Positions 10,727 through 39,823 of a stretch of 64,000 nt of DNA are shown here, one piece after another; within the stretch, counting starts at the first letter, position 1; each line of letters begins with the position of its first letter. A program made the translations under genes and the position numbers. The notes under the pieces are model-generated. The model did no database searches, had not been told where the DNA came from, and worked only from the letters and a program-made list of their open reading frames with translations. Origin of the DNA: Bacteroidales bacterium (lineage in GTDB: Bacteria > Bacteroidota > Bacteroidia > Bacteroidales > P3); the NCBI GenBank assembly GCA_017960475.1, contig JAGCZH010000017.1, positions 1-64,000 on the forward strand, in the 5' to 3' direction.

Positions 10727-11149
10727 ATGAAAAAGTATCTTTTTTTGTTCGCAGTACTTATAGCTGCGGTTATTTTTGGGGGATGTGTTTCAACACATTC
10801 CACCATCACTAGTTCGACACCACAAATAGAGCTAAAACCAGAACATCTTGAAGTCACTGAACAGAGAGAGGCGACTGGAGTAACGACTCGTATTTTTGGT
10901 ATTGATTGGGAGAGGTTGATGAATAGTCGTTCAGCCTCTATGCGTGGCACGGTTTATAGTAGTATGATATCATTCGACAGAACAGAAGAGTATGCTATCT
11001 ATGGATTATTGAAGCAAAATGAAGGATATGACATGGTAATGTATCCAAAATTTACCAAAGTGGTTCGAAAGCCAGTTATGGGAATAGGGGCGATATGTAC
11101 TATTACTGAGGTTAAGGTCAGTGCCAGATTGGCAAAATTGAAATTTTAA
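10727..11149 (+). CDS. Lipoprotein, TssQ-like candidate
   Basis: A 140-residue protein with a lipoprotein signal: hydrophobic residues 5-18 and lipobox Phe-Gly-Gly-Cys with the modified Cys at 20. The mature part is short and shows no motif I know. Subtype-iii T6SS clusters encode a lipoprotein, TssQ, as part of the trans-envelope complex; position between tssH and tssB and the size make this the best candidate. The assignment is by context, not by sequence recognition. Confidence 0.6.
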   Translation: MKKYLFLFAVLIAAVIFGGCVSTHSTITSSTPQIELKPEHLEVTEQREATGVTTRIFGIDWERLMNSRSASMRGTVYSSMISFDRTEEYAIYGLLKQNEGYDMVMYPKFTKVVRKPVMGIGAICTITEVKVSARLAKLKF

Positions 11150-16239: not shown

Positions 16240-16252
16240 TAGGTTGGTTATT

Positions 16253-16912
16253 ATGGGAGAAGAAAAATACATACGCAATGGAGCTACACTGAGGTGTTCG
16301 ATGGGGGATCAAATGTCGCAACTCGTGGTATTGCCAGAACGACGAGTAATCATAGAGGGTAGTCCAATGGCTAATATTGGAGACCATAAGTCAATGGTTA
16401 ATATAAAGCCGTTTGGTAAATGTCGTTCTTTGGCCAATCCCACTGTCGCCGCTGCAACAGCTGCCCATCATGGTACTCTTACGCCCATGCCATGTGTACC
16501 GAATACTCCGAGCAATTGGTTACATGGAAAAACCGATGTTGATGTCCAAGGTCTGAATGGTTTATTACAATCGAGTTGTCTTAATTGTTTATGGGCTGGT
16601 GTAATCAAGGTCGCAAAACATGGACAGACAGGTTCAAGCGAATCTCCCAAGATTGCACATGAAACCGCATCATGTGAGATTTCTCGTGTTGAATTGTGTA
16701 TCGGTAAAGGAGAGAAGAAAAAGAAAATGCTGGTTTATGATAATGGTGGATCTAAAAGAAACACACCAGAAGAAAGTGGAGGTTCGCAGTTTGTAGTGAC
16801 GGAAGCGGAAAAGATAGAACATGAATCGTACACTTGTGAGATAACTCGTGTTGATTTATGTATTGGTAAAAAAGGGAAGATGAAATCAGTGAGGGTTTAC
16901 GAAAAAAAATAA
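16253..16912 (+). CDS. PAAR-like DUF4280 spike-tip protein with duplicated C-terminal motif
   Basis: DUF4280 proteins are PAAR-like caps of the VgrG spike. I use the ATG at 16253 rather than the upstream TTG. The first 125 residues show the family pattern: Gly-Ala-x-Leu-x-Cys-Ser-Met-Gly, Asn-Ile-x-x-Phe-Gly-Lys-Cys, Met-Pro-Cys-Val-Pro and a Cys-x-x-Cys-Leu-Trp-x-Gly-Val-Ile-Lys end. The rest is unusual: a Cys-Glu-Ile-(Ser/Thr)-Arg-Val-(Glu/Asp)-Leu-Cys-Ile-Gly-Lys unit occurs twice (residues about 141-162 and 195-216), joined by a low-complexity link. The repeats could be docking arms for cargo. Confidence 0.85.
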   Translation: MGEEKYIRNGATLRCSMGDQMSQLVVLPERRVIIEGSPMANIGDHKSMVNIKPFGKCRSLANPTVAAATAAHHGTLTPMPCVPNTPSNWLHGKTDVDVQGLNGLLQSSCLNCLWAGVIKVAKHGQTGSSESPKIAHETASCEISRVELCIGKGEKKKKMLVYDNGGSKRNTPEESGGSQFVVTEAEKIEHESYTCEITRVDLCIGKKGKMKSVRVYEKK

Positions 16913-25153: not shown

Positions 25154-25459
25154 ATGGACGAAGATTTTTTTCTCTTTTTAACCTATCAAGGCAAGACCCT
25201 GAAATTTAAGATTAATACACCTACCGACTCTTTGGGTACACTGATGGAGAAGGTGAAAGAAACCAATATGTTTGATATGCCATCGATGGATCCATCAGGA
25301 GCGCCATTGGAATACTACTTTGGTAAATCGGATGAAACAGGTCAGCCAATTATACTAAACCCCAAAATTGGCAAGACGGAGATGTATCTTATAGATTATA
25401 ATGTAGAAAGCGGTGATGCTCTGCAGATTGTATACAACCCTATACCTGGTGCAAAATAA
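25154..25459 (+). CDS. Ubiquitin-like beta-grasp protein (modifier candidate)
   Basis: A 101-residue protein. The first hairpin (Phe-Leu-Phe-Leu-Thr-Tyr-Gln-Gly-Lys-Thr-Leu-Lys-Phe-Lys-Ile, residues 6-20), a helix with Thr-Leu-Met-Glu-Lys-Val (about 25-37), and a final part with Tyr-Leu-Ile-Asp-Tyr-Asn-Val-x-x-Gly-Asp-Ala-Leu-Gln-Ile-Val (78-93) match the ubiquitin fold, where the last strand follows a Gly-Asp turn. The tail is Pro-Ile-Pro-Gly-Ala-Lys: Gly99 would become the conjugating C-terminus after removal of two residues, as JAB peptidases do for ubiquitin-like precursors. E2, E1 and JAMM genes follow in the same cluster. Confidence 0.78.
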   Translation: MDEDFFLFLTYQGKTLKFKINTPTDSLGTLMEKVKETNMFDMPSMDPSGAPLEYYFGKSDETGQPIILNPKIGKTEMYLIDYNVESGDALQIVYNPIPGAK

Positions 25460-25478
25460 AGAGGTGAATTGTGATTAG

Positions 25479-25514
25479 TGACCGGTGATACAAATTTGTT
25501 CGTATCACTGGTCA
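25479..25514 (+). promoter_or_regulatory. Hairpin between the ubiquitin-like and E2 genes
   Basis: TGACCGGTGATAC (25479-25491) pairs with GTATCACTGGTCA (25502-25514), 13 bp with one G-U pair and a ten-base loop. No T run follows at once. It may partly terminate or protect the transcript so that more modifier than E2 is made. The remaining 211 bases before E2 are AT-rich without a gene. Confidence 0.65.
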
Positions 25515-25725
25515 TTGACCAAAATAATACTCTTTCGCTAATTGTGATTGATTATTGGGAAGAGTGCATTTCATTTAGGCGCTTTTACAATTGATTATAG
25601 TAAATCCAATACGAAAGGACAATGTAAATTCATACTCTTTGAGTTTGTATTAAAACAGTCTTTTATATAATATACTGAAAAGAAATTCTGAATGTATAAT
25701 CTTAAGTATTAATAAGTAACATGCT

Positions 25726-26427
25726 ATGGGCTTGTTTAACTATCTGCTACGAGGTGGGAGTGACAGTGTGACGAAAGAGGAGCCTGAAAACAATGAATTC
25801 TTACTACCAACAGATATTGATGAGGAAACATTTATGAGCGATATAGACGATTACAGAGACAGAAAATTTAAGGGACGTGATGCGCGTCTATTGAAAGAGT
25901 GGGACTCAATTGACAGTAAATATAATGGGCGTGGTGATGTTTTCTATCTTGTTAGAAAACGCAATGCCGCTGGATTACCTGTTGTCTATGAGGTCGTGTA
26001 TAAAATACACTCGTTCTGTGGTGTCGAAGAGGCCGATGGCGATGGTCTTCGTCACCCAAAGTTTGCTGACCGGTTTGTGATGCGTATCAACATACCTAAC
26101 AATTATCCCAGTGTTGATGCAAAATTAGAGTTCAAATTTGCTGTCAAGAATGTACTAGGACAAGAAATTCCACATCCGTGGCATCCTAATATCCGATATT
26201 ATGGAGATTTCGCGGGTCGTGTGTGCCTAAACGTTGACGCTTGTGGTGCCTATACAGACTTGTCTTGGTATATAGACCGAGTTGCGCACTATTTACGGTA
26301 TGATAACTATCATGCAAAGATTGGTGTTCCTCCATTCCCCGAGGACGATGCGGTGGCGGAATGGATTACTAATGAGGGCGAGCCGCAAGGATGGGTTGAG
26401 GAATTGCAAAATTATCATAATACGTAA
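25726..26427 (+). CDS. E2-like ubiquitin-conjugating enzyme (UBC fold)
   Basis: A 233-residue protein. After an acidic N-terminal extension (residues 1-60), the UBC core shows, in order, the Ile-Pro-Asn-Asn-Tyr-Pro strand and turn (122-128), Phe-Lys-Phe-Ala-Val, the diagnostic His-Pro-Asn motif at 153-155, and the catalytic Cys167 in Val-Cys-Leu-Asn-Val. The spacing between HPN and Cys is close to that of eukaryotic E2 enzymes. A Trp at 181 and a C-terminal helix follow. It would accept the modifier from the E1 at 34233 and pass it on. Cytoplasmic; no membrane segment. Confidence 0.88.
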   Translation: MGLFNYLLRGGSDSVTKEEPENNEFLLPTDIDEETFMSDIDDYRDRKFKGRDARLLKEWDSIDSKYNGRGDVFYLVRKRNAAGLPVVYEVVYKIHSFCGVEEADGDGLRHPKFADRFVMRINIPNNYPSVDAKLEFKFAVKNVLGQEIPHPWHPNIRYYGDFAGRVCLNVDACGAYTDLSWYIDRVAHYLRYDNYHAKIGVPPFPEDDAVAEWITNEGEPQGWVEELQNYHNT

Positions 26428-26592
26428 TAATCAACCTACAACAACAGACTAGTCAAATGCAATTAGTCAGAGTATTATAACATTAAATATATAAACGACA
26501 AATATGCTGTTACAATATGCATGGCAATAATTTTGATTACTGATTCTGAGATATTTGAAAAATGAATTTTTAAAAACTATATTACTAAGACA

Positions 26593-27777
26593 ATGAGAAA
26601 AAAAATATTCTTTTTTATTATATCATTGATTCTCCTTTATTCTGAAGGAGTTGAGGCTCAGATGAGACAGAAACTTGAGTTTGAACCCGGTCACACAGCT
26701 CTAAAGAGTGATATACAATTACGGTCATCGTATATGGATGGAGAGTATATCAATACCGAAGTGTCATTATTTTATGAAATGTCGTCTCGTGAACTGATAT
26801 TGAGTATAACCCCCAAGTGGGGATCATACGATAGGGTGTTTATGCCCATGAAAGTTTATGGGGAAAATGAGTTGAAGTCAGGTGTTCGTCGCGATCTTAA
26901 TGGCAAGCCAAGTATGACAAGTCAATTTAAGAGAGGATTATATTTCGGTATAGGACCTAGTGTCAGGTATGATGGAGCAACAGCTACAGATGTAATAGCT
27001 GTAGGCATGAAAAACGAGATGTTCTCTGTGGGTCAATCGTTAATGCTGCATTTAAGGGTAGATGACCCAGAAAAGGCAGTGTTAATAAAACTGTCAGGAA
27101 TATCAGCAGTGCAGTTACAAGAGACTGCAAGCGGGAAAATTAAATACAGATTCCTTTACATCTGTGACGAGATGCAGTTGGAAGTGAAAGTGCCGGTAGA
27201 CCCATGTAAGTCTGATGAGGTGAGTAGAATAGCGTCAGAAGCCAATCGTCTTTATAACGAGGTCTTGGATACTCATCGAAGGTATGCTAAAGCAGCAGGG
27301 TTGAAAAGTTATGATGAATGTATCAGCTGCAAGGAAAAATTTGAAAAGGGTTTCCGTGAGCAATTGTCGGAATTGAAACGCCAATACAATAGATTGAATG
27401 CTAGTTGTCCAAGAGTTGATAAAATATTGGATGAGATAGATGTTGTGTTTCATGATGCATCCACCCTAGACTGTCAGAAGAGAAAGTCAACTCCTCCTAT
27501 AAACACAGATAGGCCTGGTGGAGTGGCACCCACCCCCAATATACCTAATCTATCTATAACTTTGGCTAATGATGTTAAAAAACTAGAAGGTCTCGTCAAT
27601 AAAGTTATAGGGAATAGAAACGATGCCAATTTACGGAAGTCGTGTAATGAACTTATTTTGGAGTTTGAGGAGCGTGTGCATCAAATGGATGAGAAGAGCA
27701 AAAATAGACCTGATATAAGGAAAACACTCAATTCTTTTGATAACATAAAGAAACTATTTTTGGAAGTTACAAAATAA
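26593..27777 (+). CDS. Periplasmic protein of the ubiquitin/T6SS cluster, unknown
   Basis: A 394-residue protein with a signal peptide (residues 1-22, cut near Val-Glu-Ala-Gln). Residues 30-195 are beta-rich; residues 205-300 are helical with four Cys and many charged residues; a Pro/Asn-rich link at about 302-318 leads to a final helical section. No family recognised. It sits 165 bases after E2 and 7 bases before the next gene. In a standard subtype-iii cluster a periplasmic component of the envelope complex would be expected in this place, which is the likely role. Confidence 0.65.
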   Translation: MRKKIFFFIISLILLYSEGVEAQMRQKLEFEPGHTALKSDIQLRSSYMDGEYINTEVSLFYEMSSRELILSITPKWGSYDRVFMPMKVYGENELKSGVRRDLNGKPSMTSQFKRGLYFGIGPSVRYDGATATDVIAVGMKNEMFSVGQSLMLHLRVDDPEKAVLIKLSGISAVQLQETASGKIKYRFLYICDEMQLEVKVPVDPCKSDEVSRIASEANRLYNEVLDTHRRYAKAAGLKSYDECISCKEKFEKGFREQLSELKRQYNRLNASCPRVDKILDEIDVVFHDASTLDCQKRKSTPPINTDRPGGVAPTPNIPNLSITLANDVKKLEGLVNKVIGNRNDANLRKSCNELILEFEERVHQMDEKSKNRPDIRKTLNSFDNIKKLFLEVTK

Positions 27778-27784
27778 TGTAATT

Positions 27785-28495
27785 ATGAAAAAGCTGTATG
27801 CCGCTATAATACTGATAATGCTTATTGTGCCACTGCCAACAATGGCAGAGATTCCAGATTCCTTAGATGTAGTGAAGGTCAAACTAAGTGAACTACTGAA
27901 GGGTATTGAAATGTGTGAAAAGAGCATAGTCACCTCTGTTGACCTAGACTTTTACAATTCAAGGTTAGAGCAGTTGCGTGACAGCCGAAAGAGATTGCAG
28001 TCGACATATCCCCTAAGCGACTACGACGAGTTGTGGAATCTTGTTGCTCGGTTTGATAATTGCGACAGGCGTATATCAGAACGAGTGGCTGAATGGGAAC
28101 GAAAACGTCAGTGTATCATATTGATAGAAAAGATGAATGGATATTCTCATTCTATGGATTCGCTTTTAGAGGCAGGGAAAGAATACGCTTCACGGAAGTC
28201 GGCAGATTCGGTGATAAGTATCAAACGTCGTGCTGATGATTTGTGGAGCAATTTAGTTAGTCTGCGAGCATCGGCGGAGAAAGAGTTTGAGGGAGATACA
28301 TTGAAGGCATTATATAAGCATGTGGAGGATGTCAGAGGGGAAATACAAGATTTGTCAGAAAAAGAGAAGATAAAGGTCCGAGATATCCTTTTAGTTGTTG
28401 CTGCAGTAGTGGCGGCCGTAGCTATGCTTCTGACTCTAGTGAGAAGTTTTTCCATTACAAAGAAATCAAAAGAGACGCCATCGATTGAAATATAG
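27785..28495 (+). CDS. Periplasmic helical protein with C-terminal membrane anchor
   Basis: A 236-residue protein with a signal peptide (about residues 1-21, ending Met-Ala-Glu), a long charged helical region with coiled-coil character (about 25-195), one membrane helix (about 199-220) and a short basic cytoplasmic tail. It starts 7 bases after the previous stop and ends 6 bases before the JAMM protein, so these are one operon. The topology suits a strut between the inner membrane and periplasmic T6SS parts, similar in plan to TssO/TssP, but no sequence family was recognised. Confidence 0.65.
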   Translation: MKKLYAAIILIMLIVPLPTMAEIPDSLDVVKVKLSELLKGIEMCEKSIVTSVDLDFYNSRLEQLRDSRKRLQSTYPLSDYDELWNLVARFDNCDRRISERVAEWERKRQCIILIEKMNGYSHSMDSLLEAGKEYASRKSADSVISIKRRADDLWSNLVSLRASAEKEFEGDTLKALYKHVEDVRGEIQDLSEKEKIKVRDILLVVAAVVAAVAMLLTLVRSFSITKKSKETPSIEI

Positions 28496-28501
28496 AGAAA
28501 T

Positions 28502-30256
28502 ATGAAACAATATAGAAAACTATTTATTGTGGTGTTAATGTTGCTGGTCACAACAACCACGTTGGCAAGTCCTAAAGGAGGAAACAAAATATTCTTTTCG
28601 TATAACGAAGCGAAATCAGAGCTGACCATGTGGACGTCAGACCTTTCTGGTAATTATGTCTTCTTTATGCCGAATCAGAGTGAATTTTGTACATGGTTAT
28701 TTAATGAGGGTAAAAAAGAAGGTTTTTTGACAGGAGATTATAGCTCGGGCGCATTTATTCCGAAATCATCTCCACAAACTTTCAAGAATGTAACCAAGTT
28801 TGACACTATAGAGTGTCTAAAAATGCGGGCTAATCTATATGGCGAAGAAGTTATAGAGAGCGAGCTGTTTACGTGTGTAATAGCAGAGTATATTTCAAAG
28901 ACAGATGTTGCGGATACTGCTAACGCTGAGACTATAGTGGTTTCACAGAACGATAAAGATTCTAACGTGATGTTAATCTCCTTAGTTGTTGTAGTTGCGG
29001 TACTGATAATTGTCGTTGTAGCGGCAATAATGATACGGTATAGAAAGAAAAAACAACAGGAGGAGTCTAAAAAGCCGCATATAAAGACCAATTCTCTCGA
29101 GGTCGTCGAAGTCGTTAAAAACGAGCAACTGAAGGGTTTGGATTTTATTAAAAAATCTCCTGATGAATATTATAGATTCAACTTGAATGAGGATTATACA
29201 GACTCTGCGGTTCATTATGTTTACATACACCATACTGTGGTAAAAAAGATGTACGATTTCTTCAAACGTTCACTTGAAAGTGGAGAAGTAACAAACGAAA
29301 CAGGTTGTTATTTTGTTGGCTGCTGGGAGTATGATTCTCCAGAACATACAACATATAATATCAGTATGGAGGATATCGTTGAGCCTGGTGATGACCTTGA
29401 GCCCGGTGAATTTTCATTCAACTTTGGTCTTAAGATTGGAGTGAAACTTAATGCCGCCATAGAAAAGCTATCGCATGATACAGGACGAGACTATGTGCAT
29501 ACTGTATGGATGCACTCTCACCCAGGCTTGGGTCTGTTCCTCTCTTCTCATGACTTGTTGGTGCAGCGTCAATTGGCGTATTCCGACGCAAAAAGTCGTT
29601 TGGTGGCATTCGTTGTTGATACTAATACACCGAACCTTGATTTAGCTGTGTTCAGCGCAAAGTCGGACGGATCTATGAACAACAAGGAAGAGTTAACTCG
29701 TTTATACTCACTTGAGGAACTCTATCTTTGGAGCCGTAAGGCACATGCTGCATCTGCAGGATCCCACGATGCGGTTGAAGAAACGGTTGCACCTCCACCT
29801 GTTGATTTGGAGAAATACCATGCATTGCAGGTAAATCATCAGGGTAATAGTCGTATACTAAATGTTTATCTGGGAAGCAGTGTTATCAATGCCATTGATG
29901 ATTTGCTATATGAAAATGAAGGGAAACACACTTTGGTTGGATATCTATTCGGCACTCAGGATTCTCGAGGGAATGTAGTTGTCAACGAATGCCAACCATG
30001 TAAGGATAACGAGCAACTCCCCGAGGATACTTTAGGTCTTTTTGTTGTTGATGATGATAAAAATTTCGACAACTTAAAAAAGAAGTATTTATCTCAAACC
30101 AAGGTCGCATGCGTGTTTATTGGTCGTGGTGAAGACGAATTGGCCATCTTTACCAGAACAGATGCAAATCAACCATTCCCATCGCTTTCAGATGCAGCAA
30201 CATGCTCGATGAAACCCATGAAAGAATGGCTACGCCGTAGAAGAGTATATAAATAG
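28502..30256 (+). CDS. Membrane-anchored JAB/JAMM isopeptidase with second MPN-like domain
   Basis: A 584-residue protein. Signal peptide 1-22, a periplasmic domain 25-150, a membrane helix 155-180, then a cytoplasmic JAB domain. The metal-binding motif is complete: Glu266, His338-x-His340, seven residues, Ser348, two residues, Asp351. JAMM enzymes cut ubiquitin-like precursors or conjugates. Residues about 435-584 look like a second, inactive MPN domain (Val-Gly-Tyr-Leu-Phe-Gly core without the His pair), recalling the MPN-plus/MPN-minus pairs of the proteasome lid. A membrane-bound JAMM with an external domain is unusual. It lies between periplasmic components and the VWA-RING protein. Confidence 0.88.
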   Translation: MKQYRKLFIVVLMLLVTTTTLASPKGGNKIFFSYNEAKSELTMWTSDLSGNYVFFMPNQSEFCTWLFNEGKKEGFLTGDYSSGAFIPKSSPQTFKNVTKFDTIECLKMRANLYGEEVIESELFTCVIAEYISKTDVADTANAETIVVSQNDKDSNVMLISLVVVVAVLIIVVVAAIMIRYRKKKQQEESKKPHIKTNSLEVVEVVKNEQLKGLDFIKKSPDEYYRFNLNEDYTDSAVHYVYIHHTVVKKMYDFFKRSLESGEVTNETGCYFVGCWEYDSPEHTTYNISMEDIVEPGDDLEPGEFSFNFGLKIGVKLNAAIEKLSHDTGRDYVHTVWMHSHPGLGLFLSSHDLLVQRQLAYSDAKSRLVAFVVDTNTPNLDLAVFSAKSDGSMNNKEELTRLYSLEELYLWSRKAHAASAGSHDAVEETVAPPPVDLEKYHALQVNHQGNSRILNVYLGSSVINAIDDLLYENEGKHTLVGYLFGTQDSRGNVVVNECQPCKDNEQLPEDTLGLFVVDDDKNFDNLKKKYLSQTKVACVFIGRGEDELAIFTRTDANQPFPSLSDAATCSMKPMKEWLRRRRVYK

Positions 30257-30322
30257 AGAATTACGATATAGAACCAAACGTTTTTCAATTCCGAATAGCT
30301 TAAAATAATAAAACAATACAAT

Positions 30323-32776
30323 ATGATAATTGATAACAACAGAAACCATCTAGGGGCAACAATAAAATTGTTTTTGCTCTTTGCTCTTTTGCCATTATCA
30401 ATATCGGCTCAGGTTGGCAAGGATGAGATAAAAATCAGCCGAATCAAGACATCGGAGCGGTGTGATACTTTGCGTGTGGATTTTAAACTACTGCGAGGTG
30501 GCAATAAGATATTCAGATCGGATATTCTGAAAAAAAAAGCAGCGGATATTTTCCATGTTAAGGAGGCGGGTGTAAGTGCCGATTATCTTCCTATAGTGGA
30601 TAGTTTGATTGATATCAGCAATCGCAAAAGTCGAATGGACAACTTGGATATTATGCTGATTATCGACCATAGTGAAACTGTAAGCGAAGAGCTGCTTGCA
30701 CGTCAACGCGATATAACAGAGCGTATCGTCAACGCATACGGTAAAGAGGCAAGAGTCTTTATCTCTGTTATGTATAATGAAAAAGTATCCAAGTCTATCA
30801 TTGTCGATTCTGCAGAGTTTACTAGCTATAAATATTATTTAGGTGGTAAAGAAGAAAAATTGGATCCTTATGGCAAACATGAGTTTGGATATGGAGGCGG
30901 CAAATTGCTTTTTAAATCTGTTTTGTCGAAACTTCAAGAGATGGCAGGTATGCAGCAAACATATTATCCGAATGTTGAGGAATCTTATACTTTCAAGAAC
31001 GACAATGGTCGAGAGAAGATTATTTTTGTTTTTACCGATGGAGTGGTAAAAGACCGTAATGACGAGTTCTATGGTGGATTTGAAGATTACTCCCGATGCT
31101 ACCTCGACTATATGGACTGGATGACAAACAGCAAAGCAGGCATCCCCGTTTATTGCATTTATGTTGGAGAGGATGAAGCCTTGAGTGAGGAAAACAACGA
31201 TCGTTTGAACGCTTTCAGTATGATAGGTAGTGGCTCATCAAAGAGTTTTTTCAAGAAGGCTTTTACTCCTGAGGCTTTGCAACAACTCACCATGGGTGTT
31301 ATTGACTCGGTGGCTCCTGATTACCAACTTGTGCTTGTTAATCCCGAAGGGAAACGTTACGACGGAACGGAAACAATGTTATATTTGGCATTGATCGATG
31401 GATCAGACACTACAGCAGCAGGTTCCCGAATATATATGGCAGGCAGCAAGGAGTCGCCCATTATAGTGCACTATCGCGACAGCGGAAGCTGGACTACATT
31501 GTTGATAGGTTTTCTTGTGGGTTTGGCTATTCTTATTGTCACTTATATCGTCATGCAACTATTGGTTCCCAAAATCAGATACATAACCTTCACAAAGAAA
31601 TATGTCGTTCCATTCTCCAAATCCAAATTTGGTGTTGTGGATTTGAACTGCTATTATTGTAAGGAGCCCATTGAAGAAGGAGAGCTTGTGGTCAAGAAAT
31701 GTGAGCACATAGTCCATAAGGATTGCTGGGATGAGAATGGAGGTCGTTGTCCTGAATATGGTCGTCACAAATGCAAGACTGGTATTCATTATTATAATAA
31801 AGAAAAACTCAGTGACCCCAAGAATGCCAGTCATCTATTACCTTGGATTCTCGCTGGATTTTTTTCAGGATTGTTGGCATGGGTACTCTTTTTCGTTATT
31901 AGCAAGGGAGGTTTCATGGAGGGCGTTATGACTTCATTGGTGCATGCTCTCAACCCATGGAGTGACATGGCCGACCAAAGTCAGAGAGAGTTGTTGTCTG
32001 CGGCAATGGCAACTAAAACTGCGGCATGGATGCAGAAAGGTCTTGCGTTGGGATTTTTCCTTGTTCTCTTTTTCAGTTATGTTATAGAGTTCCGAAAAAT
32101 CGATTCAAAAATTATTGGTTTCATATTCCTTCGTTCTCTTGTAGGAGCGGTTGCTGGCATGCTGGCGATGCTGATTGGTTCGATTGTCGTTATACTTACA
32201 GGCAAGGCTAGTACATCAGGTTTGGTGGATTGGATTCCATACCTACTTTTTGCCCTTGCTGAGGCTACGGTATTGTGGTTTAAAACCGAGATTAAGTTGA
32301 AGAGTGCACTTATAGGTGGGTGTATTTCTGTATTTTTCAGTTTTTTGGTGATTTATTTTGCTAGTGGTCAGTTTGCCCCAGTTATCGGATATAAGCTTTA
32401 TGCTGCTGGCTTCGGTGGCTCAATAGCGGTAGTCCACTATGCCTCTGAGAAATATTTTCTACGCATAGACGGGTGTGTTAAGGAACGTGATATCGCCATT
32501 TACAAGTGGATGAGTGTTACAGGAGGTTTCAACAAGGTGTCGATCGGAAAATCGTCAAGTTGTGTTCTTCAGATGAACTGGGATAAATCGGAACATATTA
32601 GTGACCGTGCCGTTGAACTTTACCTAGAGAAGTCGAGGCCCTTCATGAGAGTTCTTGATGACGGTGTAACACGTCAAGGACGAACCCTCCCGAAAGGTAC
32701 GGAGTTACCACTCTCTCATGGCAATGAATTCAACATTGGACAGACTCATTTTACTTATATCGAAAAAGATGTATGA
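30323..32776 (+). CDS. VWA / RING-H2-like / polytopic / FHA-like membrane protein
   Basis: An 817-residue protein. A signal-like helix (12-29) is followed by a periplasmic VWA domain (about 107-335; MIDAS-like Asp115-His-Ser117-Glu-Thr119, later Thr-Asp-Gly at 238-240) and a membrane helix (388-411). A cytoplasmic RING-H2-like finger has ligands Cys443, Cys446, Cys460, His462, His465, Cys468, Cys476 and Cys484. Six more helices lie at about 505-705. The C-terminal FHA-like domain (730-817) has Ser-Ile-Gly-Lys-Ser-Ser and a final Phe-Asn-Ile-Gly-Gln-Thr. Topology puts RING and FHA on the same, cytoplasmic side. It may combine roles of TssR and TssN with an E3-like finger. Confidence 0.82.
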   Translation: MIIDNNRNHLGATIKLFLLFALLPLSISAQVGKDEIKISRIKTSERCDTLRVDFKLLRGGNKIFRSDILKKKAADIFHVKEAGVSADYLPIVDSLIDISNRKSRMDNLDIMLIIDHSETVSEELLARQRDITERIVNAYGKEARVFISVMYNEKVSKSIIVDSAEFTSYKYYLGGKEEKLDPYGKHEFGYGGGKLLFKSVLSKLQEMAGMQQTYYPNVEESYTFKNDNGREKIIFVFTDGVVKDRNDEFYGGFEDYSRCYLDYMDWMTNSKAGIPVYCIYVGEDEALSEENNDRLNAFSMIGSGSSKSFFKKAFTPEALQQLTMGVIDSVAPDYQLVLVNPEGKRYDGTETMLYLALIDGSDTTAAGSRIYMAGSKESPIIVHYRDSGSWTTLLIGFLVGLAILIVTYIVMQLLVPKIRYITFTKKYVVPFSKSKFGVVDLNCYYCKEPIEEGELVVKKCEHIVHKDCWDENGGRCPEYGRHKCKTGIHYYNKEKLSDPKNASHLLPWILAGFFSGLLAWVLFFVISKGGFMEGVMTSLVHALNPWSDMADQSQRELLSAAMATKTAAWMQKGLALGFFLVLFFSYVIEFRKIDSKIIGFIFLRSLVGAVAGMLAMLIGSIVVILTGKASTSGLVDWIPYLLFALAEATVLWFKTEIKLKSALIGGCISVFFSFLVIYFASGQFAPVIGYKLYAAGFGGSIAVVHYASEKYFLRIDGCVKERDIAIYKWMSVTGGFNKVSIGKSSSCVLQMNWDKSEHISDRAVELYLEKSRPFMRVLDDGVTRQGRTLPKGTELPLSHGNEFNIGQTHFTYIEKDV

Positions 32777-32852
32777 TATTGAATCTCGAATGAAGTATTA
32801 TGAATTGTTAAAGCAATACAAAAACAGATAACAACGTAAAACAATATTACTG

Positions 32853-34157
32853 ATGAAAAAAATAGTTATAATATTATTCATCCTCTGTTTTAATACAGTA
32901 ATATGGTCGCAAACGCTCGACTTGAATGGAACTTATAAAGGCCAAACAGTCAAAGCAAAGGGACGTTATAGACCCAACGGAACTGCTGAGATTACATATT
33001 TCTACTACCAAGCATACGACAAATTAGAGCGTGAGGTAAAGACTCTTAAAAGTCAGAAAAAAACACTTGAAGATGAAAAAGAGGCCCTAGAAAGAAAAGT
33101 GAAAGGAGGTAATCCGTCTACCAAGGATAATGGTGGTGCGACAAAAAAAGATGTGGCCCGATTAAATAAAAGAATAGATTCCATTACTGGCATATTAAAC
33201 ACCCGTGTAGCAGAGCTGGAGCGAACAAAAACAGAGCTCGCCTCTTTGCAAAGCCAAATTCAAGATTCAGCAGCAGCCCATAGCAAAGCTTTGGGACGGT
33301 ATAAGATAGAACTTGAAAACAAAGTTAATGAGATGGCCAAAAAAGATGAGCGTATTGCTGAACTTGAACTTATAGTTACGGGCAAAGGCTTGAACAAGAG
33401 CACTATTGGATTAGAAATGTCATATGGCTCATCGTCCATCAAAAATGATCTGACAAAAATGGATTATTGGAAAAAAACGTTCTCGCCAGCGATACAGTTA
33501 ATGGTTGCATATACTCATTATTTCTCCGAATACTCTCCGCTGGCTATCAGAGTTGGTATTGGATATGGATCATATAATGGAAAAATTTCGTCGGACCTTA
33601 TCATGGATACCATCAAAGGCCTTATCGATGATGATGGTGACAATTATGATGCTCGCTATAGATATAGTGGCATAGAAGAATCATTAACATTGAAATATTT
33701 AGAAATCCCCATATTGCTTCATTTGGGTAATTCCTACAACACTAGTGGGGTTCAAGCATGGATAGATGCTGGCTTGAAGGCAGCTATTAATATAGGAAGC
33801 AGTTTCCAAGGCAAAGGATTGTACACATCCGAGGGCTATTACCCGGAGTGGAATCTTACCATGCGCGATATTTCCATGCTTGGTTTTGTCACAGATGCAG
33901 ATCTATATTCCAATGTCACTGAAGTTGAGCCGAACAGTTTTATACTTTGGGGAACGGTAGCTTTAGGAATGAACATTCCTCTAGGTAAAAGGTTGGCAAT
34001 GCTTGTCGGTGCCCAATGTGGTTATACACTAACACCTGTGGCCACAAACCAACCTATGTCAAGTCGTTATCTGCAAGGAAATGCCAATATTCTCTCGGGT
34101 GAATCAACACGAATTTTTAATTTAGGTGCAAAAATTGGACTAACCATAAATTTGTAA
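32853..34157 (+). CDS. Coiled-coil plus outer-membrane beta-barrel protein
   Basis: A 434-residue protein with a signal peptide (1-20), a short basic segment, a heptad-rich coiled coil (about 50-165, with a Gly/Asn break near 88-100), and a C-terminal domain (about 175-434) of amphipathic strands with Tyr-Gly-Ser-Ser, Arg-Val-Gly-Ile-Gly-Tyr-Gly-Ser and a final Ile-Gly-Leu-Thr-Ile-Asn-Leu strand, typical of PorT-like Bacteroidetes outer-membrane barrels. It could tie the T6SS envelope complex to the outer membrane, with the coiled coil spanning the periplasm. This role is inferred. Confidence 0.75.
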   Translation: MKKIVIILFILCFNTVIWSQTLDLNGTYKGQTVKAKGRYRPNGTAEITYFYYQAYDKLEREVKTLKSQKKTLEDEKEALERKVKGGNPSTKDNGGATKKDVARLNKRIDSITGILNTRVAELERTKTELASLQSQIQDSAAAHSKALGRYKIELENKVNEMAKKDERIAELELIVTGKGLNKSTIGLEMSYGSSSIKNDLTKMDYWKKTFSPAIQLMVAYTHYFSEYSPLAIRVGIGYGSYNGKISSDLIMDTIKGLIDDDGDNYDARYRYSGIEESLTLKYLEIPILLHLGNSYNTSGVQAWIDAGLKAAINIGSSFQGKGLYTSEGYYPEWNLTMRDISMLGFVTDADLYSNVTEVEPNSFILWGTVALGMNIPLGKRLAMLVGAQCGYTLTPVATNQPMSSRYLQGNANILSGESTRIFNLGAKIGLTINL

Positions 34158-34232
34158 AACGTAAGTTTCACAAACGTGTCAAGGCTCCTAAGGCCTTCTG
34201 TGTTTGTGATACAGAAAAACCAAAGTCACTAT

Positions 34233-35435
34233 ATGTCAACAGAAAAAAATAATTGGGGGGAAGGTGTTTTCGACTTGTTATCATGGTTTAGAATGGATCG
34301 AGTCCATGATGCGCGAGTTATGGTTGTTGGAAGCGGAGCCTTAGGCAATGAGGCTCTCAAGAATCTTGCCCTTTTTGGAATTGGTCATATTTATGTTGTA
34401 GACTTTGATACGATAGAGTATTCAAACCTTACAAGGTCGATTCTCTTTCGTGAAGAGGATGCAGATAAAGGCTATTATAAGGCAGATGTGGCAGCAGCAA
34501 GAGTGCGGGAAATAAATAAGAATGTCGAAATCCACCCTATCATAGGTCGTCTTGACGCCGAGGTCGGTTTGGGTCTTTACCGTAGTGTCGATGTTGTTTT
34601 GGGTTGTCTCGACAGCCAGATTGCCCGTATGCAGTTAAACCGTCAGTGCATACGTGCTGGAGTGCCGTGGGTTGATGGTGGCATTGACAATCTTGTTGGT
34701 ATGGCGAGGGTGTTCAAAAAAGGTGTCAATTGTTATGAATGTGAGCTTTCGGAATCCTCAAAGATTCAGATATACAATAAACTCTCATGTTCTGATGTTG
34801 CCAGACGCAATACAGAGCACGGACGTGTTCCAACTACTCCAGTTATCGCTTCCATCATTGGTGCTGTTCAGGTGCAAGAAGCCATGAAGCTGTTGCATGA
34901 GGGCTATGTAAAGGATGGAACTTTCACATCCTTATGTGGAAGATGGTTTAATTATGAAGGCTCGCATATGACTACGCGTGTATATAAATCAGCTGTTTGG
35001 TCAGACGACTGCATGGCCCATGAAGATTGGGAGCCTGTGATAGCAGTTGACAATCTCGGTGCAGGTATGACTGTGGCATCTGCGTTGCAATGTATCTCCG
35101 AAAAATTGGGTACAAGTAATGTTGAAATCAATCTTCGTAACACACGTTTTGTTGACAAGCTCGTTACCCGTGGTGATAATAAAGTTTTCAATGTAATGTG
35201 TCCAGAGTTTAGAGTAGCTGACTCAATTGATGCTGATAGAAGGCTATATACGCGTTTGAACTCAGACATCAACCAAAACGCCTTTGAAAATATAGACTCT
35301 ACATTCCCATATCAAGATTTGACCCTTAATCAGGTTGGTATTCCATATTGGGATGTATTGCAAGTTTCGACCGATAAGGGCATGTATTTCTTAGAAATGG
35401 CTGCCGATCGCAATTATTATGATTCTCGAATATGA
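34233..35435 (+). CDS. E1-like ubiquitin-activating enzyme with C-terminal ubiquitin-fold-like domain
   Basis: I use ATG 34233 rather than GTG 34176. Of 400 residues, the first 230 form a ThiF/E1 adenylation domain: Gly-Ser-Gly-Ala-Leu-Gly (33-38), Asp57, Asn65 and Arg68, Lys83, and Asp127 followed by Arg132. A Cys-x-x-Cys is at 167-170, but the second zinc pair of MoeB/ThiF is absent. Cys186, followed by Val-Pro-Thr-Thr-Pro-Val-Ile-Ala-Ser (199-207), is the best catalytic candidate. The last 150 residues end with Thr-Leu-Asn-Gln-Val-Gly-Ile-Pro near 363-371 and a closing strand, like the E2-binding ubiquitin-fold domain of eukaryotic E1s. Its stop overlaps tssG by four bases. Confidence 0.85.
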   Translation: MSTEKNNWGEGVFDLLSWFRMDRVHDARVMVVGSGALGNEALKNLALFGIGHIYVVDFDTIEYSNLTRSILFREEDADKGYYKADVAAARVREINKNVEIHPIIGRLDAEVGLGLYRSVDVVLGCLDSQIARMQLNRQCIRAGVPWVDGGIDNLVGMARVFKKGVNCYECELSESSKIQIYNKLSCSDVARRNTEHGRVPTTPVIASIIGAVQVQEAMKLLHEGYVKDGTFTSLCGRWFNYEGSHMTTRVYKSAVWSDDCMAHEDWEPVIAVDNLGAGMTVASALQCISEKLGTSNVEINLRNTRFVDKLVTRGDNKVFNVMCPEFRVADSIDADRRLYTRLNSDINQNAFENIDSTFPYQDLTLNQVGIPYWDVLQVSTDKGMYFLEMAADRNYYDSRI

Positions 35436-36220
35436 ATAAAAAGATGGACAATACTCTTGCCGAAATGCAGATTATCCAGTCGGGACAAGATATCCACGAT
35501 TATGTAGCGAGGTATAAAGGTTGTTTTTATCGTGGTTATAATGCTGATTTGATAAAAATCAATAGGGTCGAAAAAGCGATAGAGCTTTCTCGTGATGGAA
35601 TCATGCGTAATTTGCCAGAGTCATTGTTCTTCAATGAACAGTATTTGCGAGATTCATCGGATGAAGAGGTTCTAAAAGAACGCGAATCAGAGTTAGAAGT
35701 GCAGAGGGAACAATTATCGGTCTTCTTTGAGGCATTCGATACCATTTTAGAACGTGGGCTTTTAGAACTTCATAAATGTGTGGATTCTATTGAGTGTGGA
35801 AAAGAAGAGTTTGTGCTGAAAGAAATGTATGATATTGACATTCATCGTTTTCACAATCCGTATGTGTGTAAATTGGCACGTTTGTTACTTGATGGAGACA
35901 GATTGAAAGGCAATATACATCTCATACCTTTCTTTGTAAAGTCAATTCTTGATGAGAACATTTCGTGCCGACGAGTTTCCCGTGTGGTAGATGAATTGAA
36001 ATCAATATATTACATAGAACCTCAATTCGTTATTTATATTGAAGGTCTATCCACTGAAGAATATAGGCAGCGTATGGATGAGTACGACGAATTCTTCTGG
36101 TACCTCGAACAGTGGTTTATGCCGTTTGATTGTGAAGTGGATTACTGTATCAAGGATATTAATCAGACTTTCGTTCTTGGACATCAGATGACTCTTGATT
36201 ATAATGTTCGTTTTCAATAA
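35432..36220 (+). CDS. tssG: T6SS baseplate protein TssG, subtype-iii-like
   Basis: A 262-residue cytoplasmic protein. The ATG overlaps the E1 stop (ATGA). The first half is helical and charged; the second half has Leu-Ile-Pro-Phe-Phe-Val-Lys-Ser-Ile-Leu, and the last 60 residues are beta-rich, ending Leu-Gly-His-Gln-Met-Thr-Leu-Asp-Tyr-Asn-Val-Arg, which resembles the C-terminal part of TssG. Position next to tssK, tssE and tssF supports this. Sequence similarity alone is weak. Confidence 0.6.
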   Translation: MNKKMDNTLAEMQIIQSGQDIHDYVARYKGCFYRGYNADLIKINRVEKAIELSRDGIMRNLPESLFFNEQYLRDSSDEEVLKERESELEVQREQLSVFFEAFDTILERGLLELHKCVDSIECGKEEFVLKEMYDIDIHRFHNPYVCKLARLLLDGDRLKGNIHLIPFFVKSILDENISCRRVSRVVDELKSIYYIEPQFVIYIEGLSTEEYRQRMDEYDEFFWYLEQWFMPFDCEVDYCIKDINQTFVLGHQMTLDYNVRFQ

Positions 36221-36234: not shown

Positions 36235-37116
36235 ATGCCTTTTTTTAGGAAAATAAAATGGCGTCGGGGTATGGAAATAACCCCTGCCACATTTGAAGCA
36301 GTTGACAGATACAATGAATCATTGGCATCCATTTCTCGAAGAATGTCAATTATGAGATGTCATGGTCTTTTACATGATTCGCCCATCAATTTTCCGATAA
36401 CAGTTATTGACGGCAATATTTCGGTTCAGGTTTATTCTTTGGAGGCGGTATCGCGATCGGGCATACTCTTCCAGATATCAGGTGAATCAATATCACTCAA
36501 ACAGCCTCACGCAAGTGGACGAGAATGCTATGTCGTAGTCCATACGGATGGTGAAATAGAACAGGAGGTAAACGATGTTCCCTATGCAAAGCCGCGATTC
36601 TTGTATGACTATAGCCGTCTTGATGATATTGGTCCAGATAGCATTCCTATTGCTAAGCTTATTCTACTTAACGACACATGGAATGTTCAGGAGCTCTATA
36701 TTCCGCCTTGTATGACTGTAGGGTCACATCCTGAGCTTCTTAAGATTGTCAATAATAGTAAGGCACTCTTGGATTCTATATTGTCAAAATATGTTGATAA
36801 GATAGATTCGGCAAGATTGTTACAAATAAGGATGCTGAGTGTTGAGCTTGATACATATAATGGGTACGAAACGCCCAAAGAGTTGTATGTCTTGTTGAGA
36901 AAAATTGTTGTTGCAATAGATACTTCCATCAATTCTGGTATCAGTATGCCAGAAATTCCAGCCTTTAATAACGACGATATTCTACTTTCCATATCGATTA
37001 TTACCGATTATCTTGAGACAATTGATACTTCTGCCATCATACATGAAGTTAGGCCCGAACAGAAACGTCAAGTTCCAAAGTATGAGGGAGCAGTTTATGA
37101 TGCTGAAACTCGATGA
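36235..37116 (+). CDS. tssK: T6SS baseplate protein TssK
   Basis: TssK links the T6SS baseplate to the membrane complex. The 293-residue protein begins with the family signature Lys-Ile-Lys-Trp-Arg-Arg-Gly-Met-Glu-Ile-Thr-Pro-Ala-Thr-Phe (residues 7-21), equivalent to the W-x-x-G-M-x-x-x-P-x-x-F of TssK, followed by a beta-rich shell domain and a helical middle part. It is shorter than proteobacterial TssK (about 440 residues), in particular at the C-terminal neck and head that contact the membrane complex, in line with a different membrane complex here. Confidence 0.78.
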   Translation: MPFFRKIKWRRGMEITPATFEAVDRYNESLASISRRMSIMRCHGLLHDSPINFPITVIDGNISVQVYSLEAVSRSGILFQISGESISLKQPHASGRECYVVVHTDGEIEQEVNDVPYAKPRFLYDYSRLDDIGPDSIPIAKLILLNDTWNVQELYIPPCMTVGSHPELLKIVNNSKALLDSILSKYVDKIDSARLLQIRMLSVELDTYNGYETPKELYVLLRKIVVAIDTSINSGISMPEIPAFNNDDILLSISIITDYLETIDTSAIIHEVRPEQKRQVPKYEGAVYDAETR

Positions 37117-37131: not shown

Positions 37132-37569
37132 ATGTATTATACTTCCTTACCGCTAAAAATAGAAAAAGGGAAAGGTTTTTGTCGACAGTTGAGTGTGACT
37201 GATTCCATAAAGGCCTTCATTGACATTATCGTCAGTACACCTGTAGGCATTTTTTCCGCTGATCCTGATTTTGGGTTCGTTTTCAGAAATTTTAGATTTC
37301 AAAATTTCAATGAGGAGAAGGGTGTTCTATATTCTGTTGAGCCAGATAAAGAAGTCTCAGAATTTTATAAGTATAAGATACAAGGACAGGGTGTTAATTT
37401 CAATACATTTGCCCATGAGCTGAAGATTAGCATTGAAAAATATGAACCTCGTCTTAGAGATGTAAAAGTGAGCATGGAATACTCATCTGTCAACAGGGTG
37501 ATTGACATTATTGTTACGGGGAAAGCTTCCGATGATTTTGAACATAAGATTAATATACATGTTTGGTAA
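37132..37569 (+). CDS. tssE: T6SS baseplate wedge protein TssE (gp25-like)
   Basis: A 145-residue gp25-fold protein. The core features are a Ser-Ile-Lys-Ala-Phe-Ile-Asp-Ile-Ile-Val-Ser-Thr-Pro-Val-Gly helix-turn (residues 25-39), the Asp-Pro-Asp-Phe-Gly-Phe motif (45-50) and the hallmark Tyr-Glu-Pro-Arg-Leu (105-109) near the C-terminus, part of the sheath-initiating strand. It lies 15 bases after tssK and two bases before tssF. Confidence 0.92.
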   Translation: MYYTSLPLKIEKGKGFCRQLSVTDSIKAFIDIIVSTPVGIFSADPDFGFVFRNFRFQNFNEEKGVLYSVEPDKEVSEFYKYKIQGQGVNFNTFAHELKISIEKYEPRLRDVKVSMEYSSVNRVIDIIVTGKASDDFEHKINIHVW

Positions 37570-37571
37570 TT

Positions 37572-39278
37572 ATGGCAAATAAAAAAACAACTGAGGAATT
37601 AATCAAAGAGGCTGTTGCGGTGTGGCATAATGAAGGTATGGACAGCACAGACAGCGATAGTCCTCTTTATAATTTACACGATGACCCTATTTCGAAATTG
37701 ATAATTGGGGCTGTCAATCATCAATCGAATTCAATATTTGATGATATAGCGACATTCCGTGATGATTTGGCAGAGGAATGTTTAGATTTGGCTTCACCTG
37801 TTTATCTTTTTTCTCCCATACCGTCAATAGGGATGCTTCAGACGGCAAAAGGACATTCCATTGGATTGAACAATAATGAAAAAACAAAGCTTGATGGAAA
37901 TATGTCATTCGTTATCACCAAAGATGTTGGTACAAAAAGGTTGACATTTCCATTTATGCCATTACTTTCAATAGTAGTAATGGACCTTTCAGTACGTTCA
38001 GTCACTAAAGTGAGTCGAAATAGGTGGCGGATGGAAATTGAAGACATGGAAGGTGTAAAGGACTTGCAAGGTCTCTCATTCTTTTTGCCAAATATTGAAC
38101 ATGTTACAGCAAGTAATTATATACATCGCAGAGCCGATGAATATGACGACAAGATAAAGTTGTATGTCGATGATTACCAATTGCCAGTTTGTAATATTTC
38201 TGATTTTGACAAACTTCCTTTTGTCCAACAATTTGGGCGTGGAATGGTTTATTCGAAAAACACTTTGCAATGCAATGTTTTGCAAAATATCCAGGATACC
38301 TTTTGTTGCCATGTTAACAATTATTGTATTATCGACCGAATAAATGAAGATATAGACATTCCTCGGCGAGACGGGTGTATACTGATAGATATAGAACTGC
38401 CATTAGTTGATGACGATATTGATATTCAACCGAAAGATGTTCTATTGAATTGTGTGCCTATAATCAATGTTGACCAACATACAATAAATCTCACACAATA
38501 TAATCCGATACAACCGGTAGAAGTAGACAATGGCTTTTTCCTAACGAATCTAGCTGTTGACGACTCGTGCAATGGAGATACGGTTGCTTTGCGTCGAGTT
38601 GCCACAAGTCGTATGTCTCCAGAGCTGTGGATTGAAAGGATGGGGAAGCTCCTTGATTATTATAATTCCCAGCATATTGTCATGGAACATCTGTTGGATG
38701 AAAAAATGACCAAGTCATTGCCCCAATTCATTGCTTTATTAAAACAGAGCATTCCAAATCAAAAAAAACAAGATGAGGGCCTTTATCTTGTGTTGAAAAA
38801 TAAAATGTTGTCGTCTGTTTCTGTGCCATGGCTTTCCACTTCAGGCGAGATGGCTAATGATTTTGGAATAGATTCTAAGCTACAATGTACGTCGGCAGAA
38901 TTGGATTCAGATAGGACAAAGCTAGTTACAAAAACAGTAGGCGGTAGAAACCCAATGACAGATGCTACAAAGCGACAGAGAGCAGTGCAATATTATCAGA
39001 TATCTCGAGACAGAATAATTTCAAAATCTGATATTGTCGCTTTTTGTCGTTACAAACTCTCAAACATGTTCTCTGTCGCATCATCCAATATTGAAGAAAT
39101 CCGTATTTATAATATTGTGCGCAATTCATTAGAGGGTTTTTATGAGAGAATTCTCGTTGTTGATATAAAAGTTTGTAAAGGTTGTGTAGATCCAATTTAC
39201 GTATCCTATGCTCTCGAGCGCATGATTAGGTATAGAACATCATCATTAACACCGGTGAGAGTTGTTATTAACGACTAA
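37572..39278 (+). CDS. tssF: T6SS baseplate wedge protein TssF
   Basis: I use ATG 37572, two bases after the tssE stop, rather than a TTG further upstream. The 568-residue protein starts like TssF: Asp-Pro-Ile-Ser-Lys-Leu-Ile-Ile-Gly-Ala-Val-Asn-His-Gln (about 39-52), then a helix of acidic residues and Leu-Phe-Ser-Pro-Ile-Pro-Ser-Ile-Gly-Met-Leu-Gln, matching the L-x-P-x-x-x-x-P-x-P-S element. The rest is beta-rich. Length is close to other TssF proteins. Two copies pair with one TssG in known wedges. Confidence 0.82.
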   Translation: MANKKTTEELIKEAVAVWHNEGMDSTDSDSPLYNLHDDPISKLIIGAVNHQSNSIFDDIATFRDDLAEECLDLASPVYLFSPIPSIGMLQTAKGHSIGLNNNEKTKLDGNMSFVITKDVGTKRLTFPFMPLLSIVVMDLSVRSVTKVSRNRWRMEIEDMEGVKDLQGLSFFLPNIEHVTASNYIHRRADEYDDKIKLYVDDYQLPVCNISDFDKLPFVQQFGRGMVYSKNTLQCNVLQNIQDTFCCHVNNYCIIDRINEDIDIPRRDGCILIDIELPLVDDDIDIQPKDVLLNCVPIINVDQHTINLTQYNPIQPVEVDNGFFLTNLAVDDSCNGDTVALRRVATSRMSPELWIERMGKLLDYYNSQHIVMEHLLDEKMTKSLPQFIALLKQSIPNQKKQDEGLYLVLKNKMLSSVSVPWLSTSGEMANDFGIDSKLQCTSAELDSDRTKLVTKTVGGRNPMTDATKRQRAVQYYQISRDRIISKSDIVAFCRYKLSNMFSVASSNIEEIRIYNIVRNSLEGFYERILVVDIKVCKGCVDPIYVSYALERMIRYRTSSLTPVRVVIND

Positions 39279-39289: not shown

Positions 39290-39823
39290 ATGAAAGCATT
39301 CCATAATAATATTATCAAATTACTAAAAACCTTATTTCTTGCGGCTTTTATACCCACTTTGCAACCATATGTACAAGCCCAAGAAGAAATGGACAGCCTT
39401 GATTGCGTTTTTACCGTCGATCGTATGATTCGTTTCGCTGAACGTTTTCAAGGAGTTCCATATGTTTGGGCTGCAAATGGACCAGACAGCTTTGATTGTT
39501 CCGGTTTTGTACATTATGTATATACTCATGCAGGATTCAAAGTCAAACGAAATTCTAAGCAATTGTCCATGGAAGGCAGGGAGATTTCAATTGTAGAAGT
39601 CAAAAAAGGGGATTTGATTTTCTTTGCATCAGGTGAACCTCCTGAGAGAGATATTACTCATGTAGGGATTGCAATTTCCAACTACGATCCTAAAACATGT
39701 AGTTTCCAATTTATACATGCAAATAAAAGGGATAATTGCGTTGCCATTAGCAACTATAACGAACGTCGTTTCCGTAATACACATGGTGGTGCCCGTCGTG
39801 TAATACCATGTCTTGACAATTGA
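39290..39823 (+). CDS. NlpC/P60 cell-wall peptidase
   Basis: A 177-residue secreted cysteine peptidase with a signal peptide (1-30, ending Val-Gln-Ala). The catalytic domain has Cys70 in Asp-Cys-Ser-Gly-Phe, His124 in Thr-His-Val-Gly-Ile, and a third polar residue His143, with Gly-Asp-Leu-Ile-Phe-Phe between. Such enzymes cut peptidoglycan stem peptides. It lies 11 bases after tssF and ends the cluster, so it likely opens the producer's own wall for T6SS assembly; a Sec-exported form argues against it being the fired toxin. Confidence 0.88.
   Translation: MKAFHNNIIKLLKTLFLAAFIPTLQPYVQAQEEMDSLDCVFTVDRMIRFAERFQGVPYVWAANGPDSFDCSGFVHYVYTHAGFKVKRNSKQLSMEGREISIVEVKKGDLIFFASGEPPERDITHVGIAISNYDPKTCSFQFIHANKRDNCVAISNYNERRFRNTHGGARRVIPCLDN

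Follow-up and report, generated by a model that had tools for sequence, protein, structure and literature searches.

A ubiquitin-like conjugation module inside a subtype iii type VI secretion cluster of Bacteroidales

What could a ubiquitin-like conjugation pathway be doing inside the gene cluster of a contractile secretion machine? The question is raised by the 64,000-nucleotide stretch of Bacteroidales DNA analyzed here (contig JAGCZH010000017.1, hereafter the window), which comes from a genome of 2.45 Mb that is 98% complete. Between positions 8195 and 39823, with the cluster genes on the + strand, the window carries a type VI secretion system (T6SS) of subtype iii (T6SSiii) and, embedded in it, genes for a ubiquitin-like protein (Ubl), an activating enzyme (E1), a conjugating enzyme (E2), a JAMM peptidase, and a membrane protein with VWA, RING, and FHA domains. 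In bacteria, ubiquitin-like conjugation has been met chiefly in defence and cofactor pathways, and E1-E2-JAB-Ubl operons are known to act in defence. We conclude that the window system represents a T6SSiii lineage distinct from others and equipped with a membrane-tethered module of its own for ubiquitin-like conjugation. That the module is a core part of this Bacteroidota lineage and takes the place of the TssN-TssR complex by licensing or holding the baseplate is a reading to which we assign an even chance.

The preliminary description of this stretch had named five conjugation genes on one strand, and all five were located at the positions it gave. The genes starting at 26593, 27785, and 32853 also belong to the set, which is as follows (row counts refer to the alignments described below; TM, transmembrane).

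25154..25459, + strand, ubiquitin-like modifier with the C-terminus ...NPIPG-AK (AlphaFold2 model, pLDDT 83; Foldseek to ubiquitin, probability 1.0; Gly99 aligned in 83/83 rows)
25726..26427, + strand, E2-like conjugating enzyme, HPN at residues 153-155 and Cys167 (HPN and Cys in 83/83 rows; UQ_con in 22/33 relatives)
26593..27777, + strand, SPb, a secreted periplasmic protein with a beta N-terminal part and a helical part (signal peptide; hhalign to the same-position family, 95%, 1.7e-8)
27785..28495, + strand, CCTM, with a signal peptide, a periplasmic coiled coil, and a C-terminal TM helix (a family in the equivalent position in 78 rows)
28502..30256, + strand, membrane JAMM peptidase with a signal peptide, a periplasmic domain, a TM segment at 155-187, and a cytoplasmic JAMM domain (JAB, 1.3e-5; RPN11, 4e-8)
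30323..32776, + strand, VWA-TM-RING-6 TM-FHA membrane protein, proposed E3 and scaffold (AlphaFold2 model, pLDDT 78; Foldseek to VWA and FHA)
32853..34157, + strand, outer-membrane beta-barrel protein (OMP) with a periplasmic coiled coil (OMP_b-brl_2, 1.1e-7; only in loci with JAMM)
34233..35435, + strand, E1-like activating enzyme, candidate catalytic C186, zinc ligands C167, C170, C260, and H263 (ThiF, 3e-48; UBA7, 7e-35)

A scan of named genomes based on the E2 alignment returned 98 relatives, 80 of which were kept; with the window and two relatives from its genus, these make up the 83 alignment rows and, since two pairs of contigs are identical (G024 and L061; G054 and L079), 81 distinct loci. 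The scan relied on short E2 motifs and retrieves close relatives only, so the searches of sampled genomes described below are the less biased test. Every one of the 81 distinct loci has at least one T6SS gene within its 20-kb stretch, and many of these loci come from rumen and gut samples. The Ubl and the E2 are present in all 83 rows, the VWA-RING protein in 81, and the E1 in 79. Two gene orders are found: that of the window (Ubl-E2-SPb-CCTM-JAMM-VWA-RING-OMP-E1-TssG-TssK) and one without JAMM or OMP (E1-TssG-TssK-TssE-TssF-Ubl-E2-SPb-CCTM-VWA-RING). The E1 gene and tssG overlap by 4 bases in 36 of the 79 rows, and in the second order the Ubl gene starts a median of 13 bases after TssF. The median identity of the window proteins to the others is 47% for the E1, 48% for the E2, and 44% for the Ubl, versus 25% for TssG, 23% for TssK, and 22% for TssF. 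The pathway was previously called complete, but JAMM is missing in most of the family, so that the core of the module is Ubl-E1-E2-RING; the JAMM peptidase and the outer-membrane protein are clade specific. In L008 (12698-14053 and 14092-14817), as in most JAMM-less loci, two conserved genes lie between the PAAR gene and the E1 gene, one encoding a secreted repeat protein and the other a protein of ~240 residues.

The identity of the E1 is certain. Its closest solved relatives are ubiquitin-type E1s, UBA7 being one example, and solved BubCD is also among its relatives. Its adenylation motifs had been seen earlier, and the key residues (GxGxxG, the Asp, the Lys, the zinc cysteines, and the thiol Cys of the crossover region) are invariant in 78-79 of 79 sequences; C186 is, by its position only, the candidate thiol cysteine. 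Its C-terminal domain was also considered as a second ubiquitin fold, for which hhalign gave no match. The window E2 taken alone matches UQ_con weakly (E = 0.006). Among its relatives, the best UQ_con match is 1.6e-5 and the best solved relative is UBE2K (9e-4), and the HPN motif and the cysteine noticed in the window protein recur throughout the alignment. The E2 assignment, drawn from sequence comparison, is therefore weak for the single protein and firm for the family. As for the gene starts, the E1 frame opens at GTG 34176, but conservation begins near ATG 34233; the E2 start at 25726 may be too far upstream, since the conserved part begins only near residue 37 (ATG at 25834).

The window Ubl on its own has no family match, and its relatives match the Rad60-SLD, ubiquitin, and YukD models. 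The beta-grasp fold expected of it is found in its AlphaFold2 model, which retrieves ubiquitin structures at the probability listed above. Its glycine is aligned in every row and is the last residue in 82 of 83; the window modifier is the exception, ending in ...PIPG-AK with a two-residue tail after the glycine, whereas the usual ending of these modifiers is ...DPFPG. The identity of the JAMM peptidase is likewise certain: the motif H338-S-H340-P...D351 (E...HxH...D), described before as perfect, is invariant in 11 sequences, and the RPN11 match was obtained with the family profile. Tails on the Ubl occur only where JAMM is present (5/22 versus 0/~63; Fisher p = 8e-4 without correction for kinship), a pattern consistent with trimming as an additional role. 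Processing of Ubl precursors as the main function of JAMM was considered and rejected: in most loci with JAMM, the Ubl as encoded has Gly as its last residue, so processing cannot be the sole role. Directly 5' of the Ubl gene (22414-25083), the window encodes a repeat protein that carries a sorting tail for type IX secretion (Por_Secre_tail), and a protein of this kind likewise precedes the Ubl in most loci of the JAMM clade (L012-L025).

In the VWA-RING-FHA protein (817 residues), the VWA and FHA folds were found by searching with the model. The eight RING-type zinc ligands counted in the preliminary description (C443, C446, C460, H462, H465, C468, C476, and C484) follow the cross-brace order, with a C7-C8 spacing longer than the classical one, and all eight are invariant in 80 of 80 sequences. 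Judging from the helices of the model, the VWA domain is probably periplasmic and the RING and FHA domains are probably cytoplasmic, and we propose that the protein serves as a RING E3 and scaffold. The FHA domain was rejected as a phosphothreonine reader upon inspection of the alignment, the usual Arg and Ser-Arg-x-His being replaced; it more closely resembles the YscD-type fold, which also came up in the Foldseek search. In a locus from the same genus (L010/L011; G076:C24, ~159591-160256), all that is kept of the VWA-RING protein is a C-terminal fragment, a sign of recent loss.

T6SS genes flank the module on both sides, as had been claimed: TssC, TssD, VgrG, ClpV, TssK, and TssE are recognized by Pfam, whereas TssF and TssG were named through relatives in TssN-type loci that are themselves weak matches to the Pfam models. 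Assignment to subtype iii follows the TssC (PF17541) and TssD (PF17642) families, and the baseplate and spike set comprises VgrG, TssE, and TssK by Pfam together with TssF and TssG via relatives only. The 5' and 3' parts of the cluster, which enclose the module, are as follows.

8195..10618, + strand, ClpV/TssH ATPase (Pfam AAA_2, 3.4e-58; ClpB_D2-small)
10727..11149, + strand, small lipoprotein-like protein between tssH and tssB (lipobox-like GGC in the translation; no Pfam match)
11170..11628, + strand, TssB sheath protein (by position and by homologues at the equivalent place next to tssC; no significant Pfam match)
11666..13024, + strand, TssC sheath protein, T6SSiii family (PF17541, 4.2e-103)
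13077..13529, + strand, TssD/Hcp (PF17642, 6e-28)
13814..14224, + strand, second TssD/Hcp (PF17642, 3e-29)
14236..16239, + strand, VgrG/TssI (Phage_base_V, 4.4e-22; Phage_GPD, 1.3e-16)
16244..16912, + strand, PAAR-like DUF4280 spike or cargo protein (DUF4280, 5.8e-29), followed by cargo genes
35432..36220, + strand, TssG, with a 4-base overlap with the E1 gene (homology to TssG of TssN-type loci, one of which matches PF06996 at 0.0037)
36235..37116, + strand, TssK (T6SS_VasE, 4.7e-4)
37132..37569, + strand, TssE (GPW_gp25, 4.7e-6)
37563..39278, + strand, TssF (homology to TssF of TssN-type loci, one of which matches PF05947 at 1.5e-4)
39290..39823, + strand, secreted NlpC/P60 peptidoglycan hydrolase at the cluster end, possibly accessory (NLPC_P60, 6.2e-21)

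After the PAAR-like gene (16914-20709) come three genes (609, 255, and 378 amino acids) that belong to no Pfam family and are unmatched in other loci; they probably represent effector and immunity cargo.

Known T6SSs of Bacteroidota, which belong to subtype iii and have the genetic architectures GA1-GA3, are anchored in the envelope via TssN-Q-O-P-R, encoded next to tssG and tssK (PMC10781749, PMC4714493). TssN (PF17555) was not found in the window genome by a search that detects it above the cut-off in 8 of 393 genomes of the order. This sample of 393 genomes, searched for the E2, TssN, and TssC, contains the E2 in 6 genomes, both the E2 and TssN in none, and TssC in 18, among them 5 of the 6 E2-positive genomes (the sixth, G205, being without TssC). 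None of seven TssN-type loci carries a module gene. In the TssC tree, all TssN-type systems, together with four that have no TssN match, form a single clade of ten with full support, and every module-bearing system falls outside it, where the only module-less system is that of G445. The TssN-TssR complex appears to be lacking in the module-bearing lineage. A missing TssN match alone is not proof of absence, since two members of the TssN clade, G434 and G517, give no match despite long contigs. The functional link to the T6SS suggested earlier is supported by the presence of T6SS genes at all 81 loci, the invariant catalytic residues, the interdigitation with baseplate genes, and the lack of overlap with TssN in the order sample.

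How the module might act can be outlined as follows. The E1 would adenylate the C-terminal glycine of the Ubl, which would then be passed, probably via Cys186 of the E1, to Cys167 of the E2. The charged E2 would be recruited by the inner-membrane VWA-RING-FHA protein, whose RING lies in the cytoplasm, so that conjugation takes place at the envelope, the site at which the baseplate has to dock; the substrate would most likely be a subunit of the baseplate or of the membrane complex. The effect of conjugation would be to license the baseplate or to hold it on a platform made of the VWA-RING-FHA protein, CCTM, and SPb, which would replace the TssN-TssR complex. In the clade of the window, the membrane JAMM peptidase would remove the Ubl again, turning the modification into a reversible switch, and it would also trim the AK tail of the window modifier. 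Such a docking licence is the simplest reading of a module whose genes are interleaved with those of the baseplate, which is more strictly conserved than they are, and which is present where TssN was not found. The broader proposal is that of a T6SS subtype relying on an obligate Ubl pathway of its own, instead of TssN-R, to build or license its envelope anchor and the docking of its baseplate, coupled with a wider association of the module with contractile injection systems of Bacteroidota; in our estimate its probability falls slightly short of even.

Relatives outside the order were sought in class- and phylum-wide samples, in which the VWA-RING family is found at full strength in two genera only. 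In G641 and G735, an E1-Ubl-E2-JAMM-VWA operon lies on the same contig as a full extracellular-type contractile injection system (eCIS) ~20 kb away, with cargo and PAAR genes between them (L131, L132, and L139 in G641:C65, and G735:C11; the intervening genes include PAAR and eCIS_core cargo genes). This makes the eCIS a second kind of contractile injection machine with a module relative nearby. In G1128, a module relative and a TssN-type T6SSiii are ~9 kb apart, separated by a PAAR-like Rhs gene (L172, L168, and L169; G1128:C38). Its congener G871 has the operon and no TssC, and no injection genes were seen in the flank read. Within the order, G205 (L108 and L126; G205:C685) carries an E1-Ubl-E2-JAMM-VWA-RING operon beside SrfB and Virul_Fac genes, and in the flank read there is, again, no injection gene; its modifier ends in ...IIAG-YLVV, and a second JAMM gene is located further along. 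The Ubls of these distant relatives are plain YukD-family proteins (1e-7). Regular occurrence of the genes apart from T6SSs would have pointed to a chance insertion: close homologues are never found without T6SS genes, but the distant ones in G205 and G871 lack them in the flank, and those in G641 and G735 adjoin an eCIS. Since relatives lie by an eCIS, by a TssN-type T6SS, or by neither, the module is probably older than its residence in the T6SS and has probably met injection systems more than once. On viral contigs, the single candidate was weak and had an unrelated context.

Several points weigh against a docking licence that takes the place of TssN. In the order sample, the module and TssN strictly exclude each other, but outside the order this rule is broken by G1128, in which TssN and a module relative share one cluster; the module therefore cannot be taken in every case as a mere substitute for TssN. 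G445 has a T6SS, sister to that of G573, with neither the module nor a detectable TssN, and such a T6SS may therefore persist without the module. The RING domains of G641, G871, and G1128 are without the first CxxC, which is intact in the T6SS lineage and in G205. When the VWA-RING protein and the Ubl were tried as a disguised TssN, hhalign indicated no homology (probabilities <1%), and among the proteins of the window cluster there was no Pfam match to TssO, TssP, TssQ, or TssR, for which no dedicated profile search was made. Finally, the enzymatic activity, the substrate, and the role in assembly are all what we infer from gene content and conservation. As a separate observation, the module-less loci of G445 (L119; G445:C1) and G434 (L118/L116), which have no TssN match, carry protein kinase-like and FHA-like genes instead (in G445, next to the T6SS, as seen upon inspection); it looks as if one kind of post-translational control had been exchanged for another.

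Among the other explanations, the one that survives best, which we nevertheless consider unlikely, is that the Ubl tags cargo (effectors, Hcp, or VgrG/PAAR) for loading, folding, or a quality check before firing. The window Ubl and E2 genes do come after the VgrG-PAAR-cargo block, PAAR genes are found near the E1 gene in most loci, and operon relatives adjoin PAAR or eCIS cargo genes; however, cargo genes vary from locus to locus, unlike the module and the baseplate genes, which remain neighbours, and the RING is bound to the membrane at the envelope rather than carried by a soluble cargo adaptor. We hold it improbable that an anti-phage or stress-response Ubl system of the Bil, Bub, or CBASS kind merely shares the island. 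The established defensive role of bacterial E1-E2-JAB-Ubl operons, and the relatives in G205 and G871 that lie away from recognizable injection genes in the flank read, would agree with it, as would the match of distant PADLOC E1-E2 models, confined to the generic E1 adenylation domain (3e-14). All 81 close loci, however, lie within T6SS clusters with their genes interleaved with those of the baseplate, the PADLOC models match neither the Ubl nor the E2 nor the JAMM, no model specific to Bil, Bub, or CBASS was matched, and the neighbourhoods are unlike those of Bil and CBASS. NCBIfam offers no specific name for the module proteins.

Somewhat more improbable still is a Ubl that acts without covalent conjugation, as a sulfur carrier or in structural docking. 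In GA3 systems, a cytoplasmic domain of TssN that resembles ubiquitin reportedly docks the baseplate (PMC10781749), which offers a precedent, but the HPN motif and Cys of the E2, the thiol of the E1, and the C-terminal Gly of the Ubl are invariant, which a structural role would not need, and JAMM accompanies the set in one clade. Injection of the enzymes or the Ubl for modification of target-cell proteins, for instance those of rumen protists, is very improbable. Many of the loci do come from rumen and gut samples, in which eukaryotic prey live, but the E3 candidate and JAMM have signal peptides and TM helices and reside in the membranes of the producer, and the E1, E2, and Ubl genes rank with the best conserved ones, which effector genes do not.

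In at least 81 loci, ubiquitin-like conjugation genes thus belong without exception to the gene cluster of a secretion machine, and no description of a T6SS linked to ubiquitin-like conjugation was found in the open-licence literature. Some of the loci are in cultured commensals (Xylanibacter ruminicola D31d, Prevotella sp. ne3005, Bacteroides mediterraneensis An793, and Caecibacteroides pullorum AN421 among them), which provide a natural setting with countable output (Hcp secretion, sheath assembly, and killing). If the docking licence is correct, a contractile machine would be controlled or assembled by ubiquitin-like tagging, Bacteroidota would have a second solution for anchoring the T6SS in the membrane, and a membrane RING E3 would be encoded in one cluster with the E1, E2, and modifier, in a layout close to that of the eukaryotic pathway. 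Each of the two components, T6SSiii and bacterial Ubl conjugation, is of a known kind; it is their joining that would surprise specialists.

Compared with known systems, the module shares the E1, E2, Ubl, and JAMM chemistry with Bil, Bub, and type II CBASS, and its E1 relatives include BubCD, but its RING and JAMM proteins are membrane bound and it resides in a T6SS cluster. Burroughs, Iyer, and Aravind are said to have predicted, in 2011, prokaryotic RING-E1-E2-JAB systems with YukD-like modifiers. Those systems have in common with the module the RING, E1, E2, and JAB and, in its relatives, Ubls of the YukD family; they differ from it in that the module is linked to the T6SS, has the VWA-TM-RING-TM-FHA architecture, and mostly lacks JAMM. 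Systems related to them have been described (PMC7159879). The mobilizable plasmid pCRI9333.03 of Crinalium epipsammum (L005) carries an E1-Ubl-Ubl-E2-JAB operon in which the E1 is 46% identical over the adenylation domain, with an E2 and a JAB alongside; that operon, however, adjoins a conjugation coupling protein and has no RING and no T6SS. The relatives in G641 and G735 keep the order of E1, Ubl, E2, JAMM, and a VWA/FHA membrane protein near a contractile injection system, but this system is of the extracellular type and the RING ligands are partly lost. With the T6SSs of GA1-GA3, finally, the window system shares the TssB/C/D, VgrG, TssK/G/E/F, and ClpV families and an envelope-spanning gene set beside tssG and tssK that includes a VWA protein in both cases; it differs from them in its undetected TssN, in the E1, E2, Ubl, and RING genes that TssN-type loci do not have, and in its separate TssC lineage.

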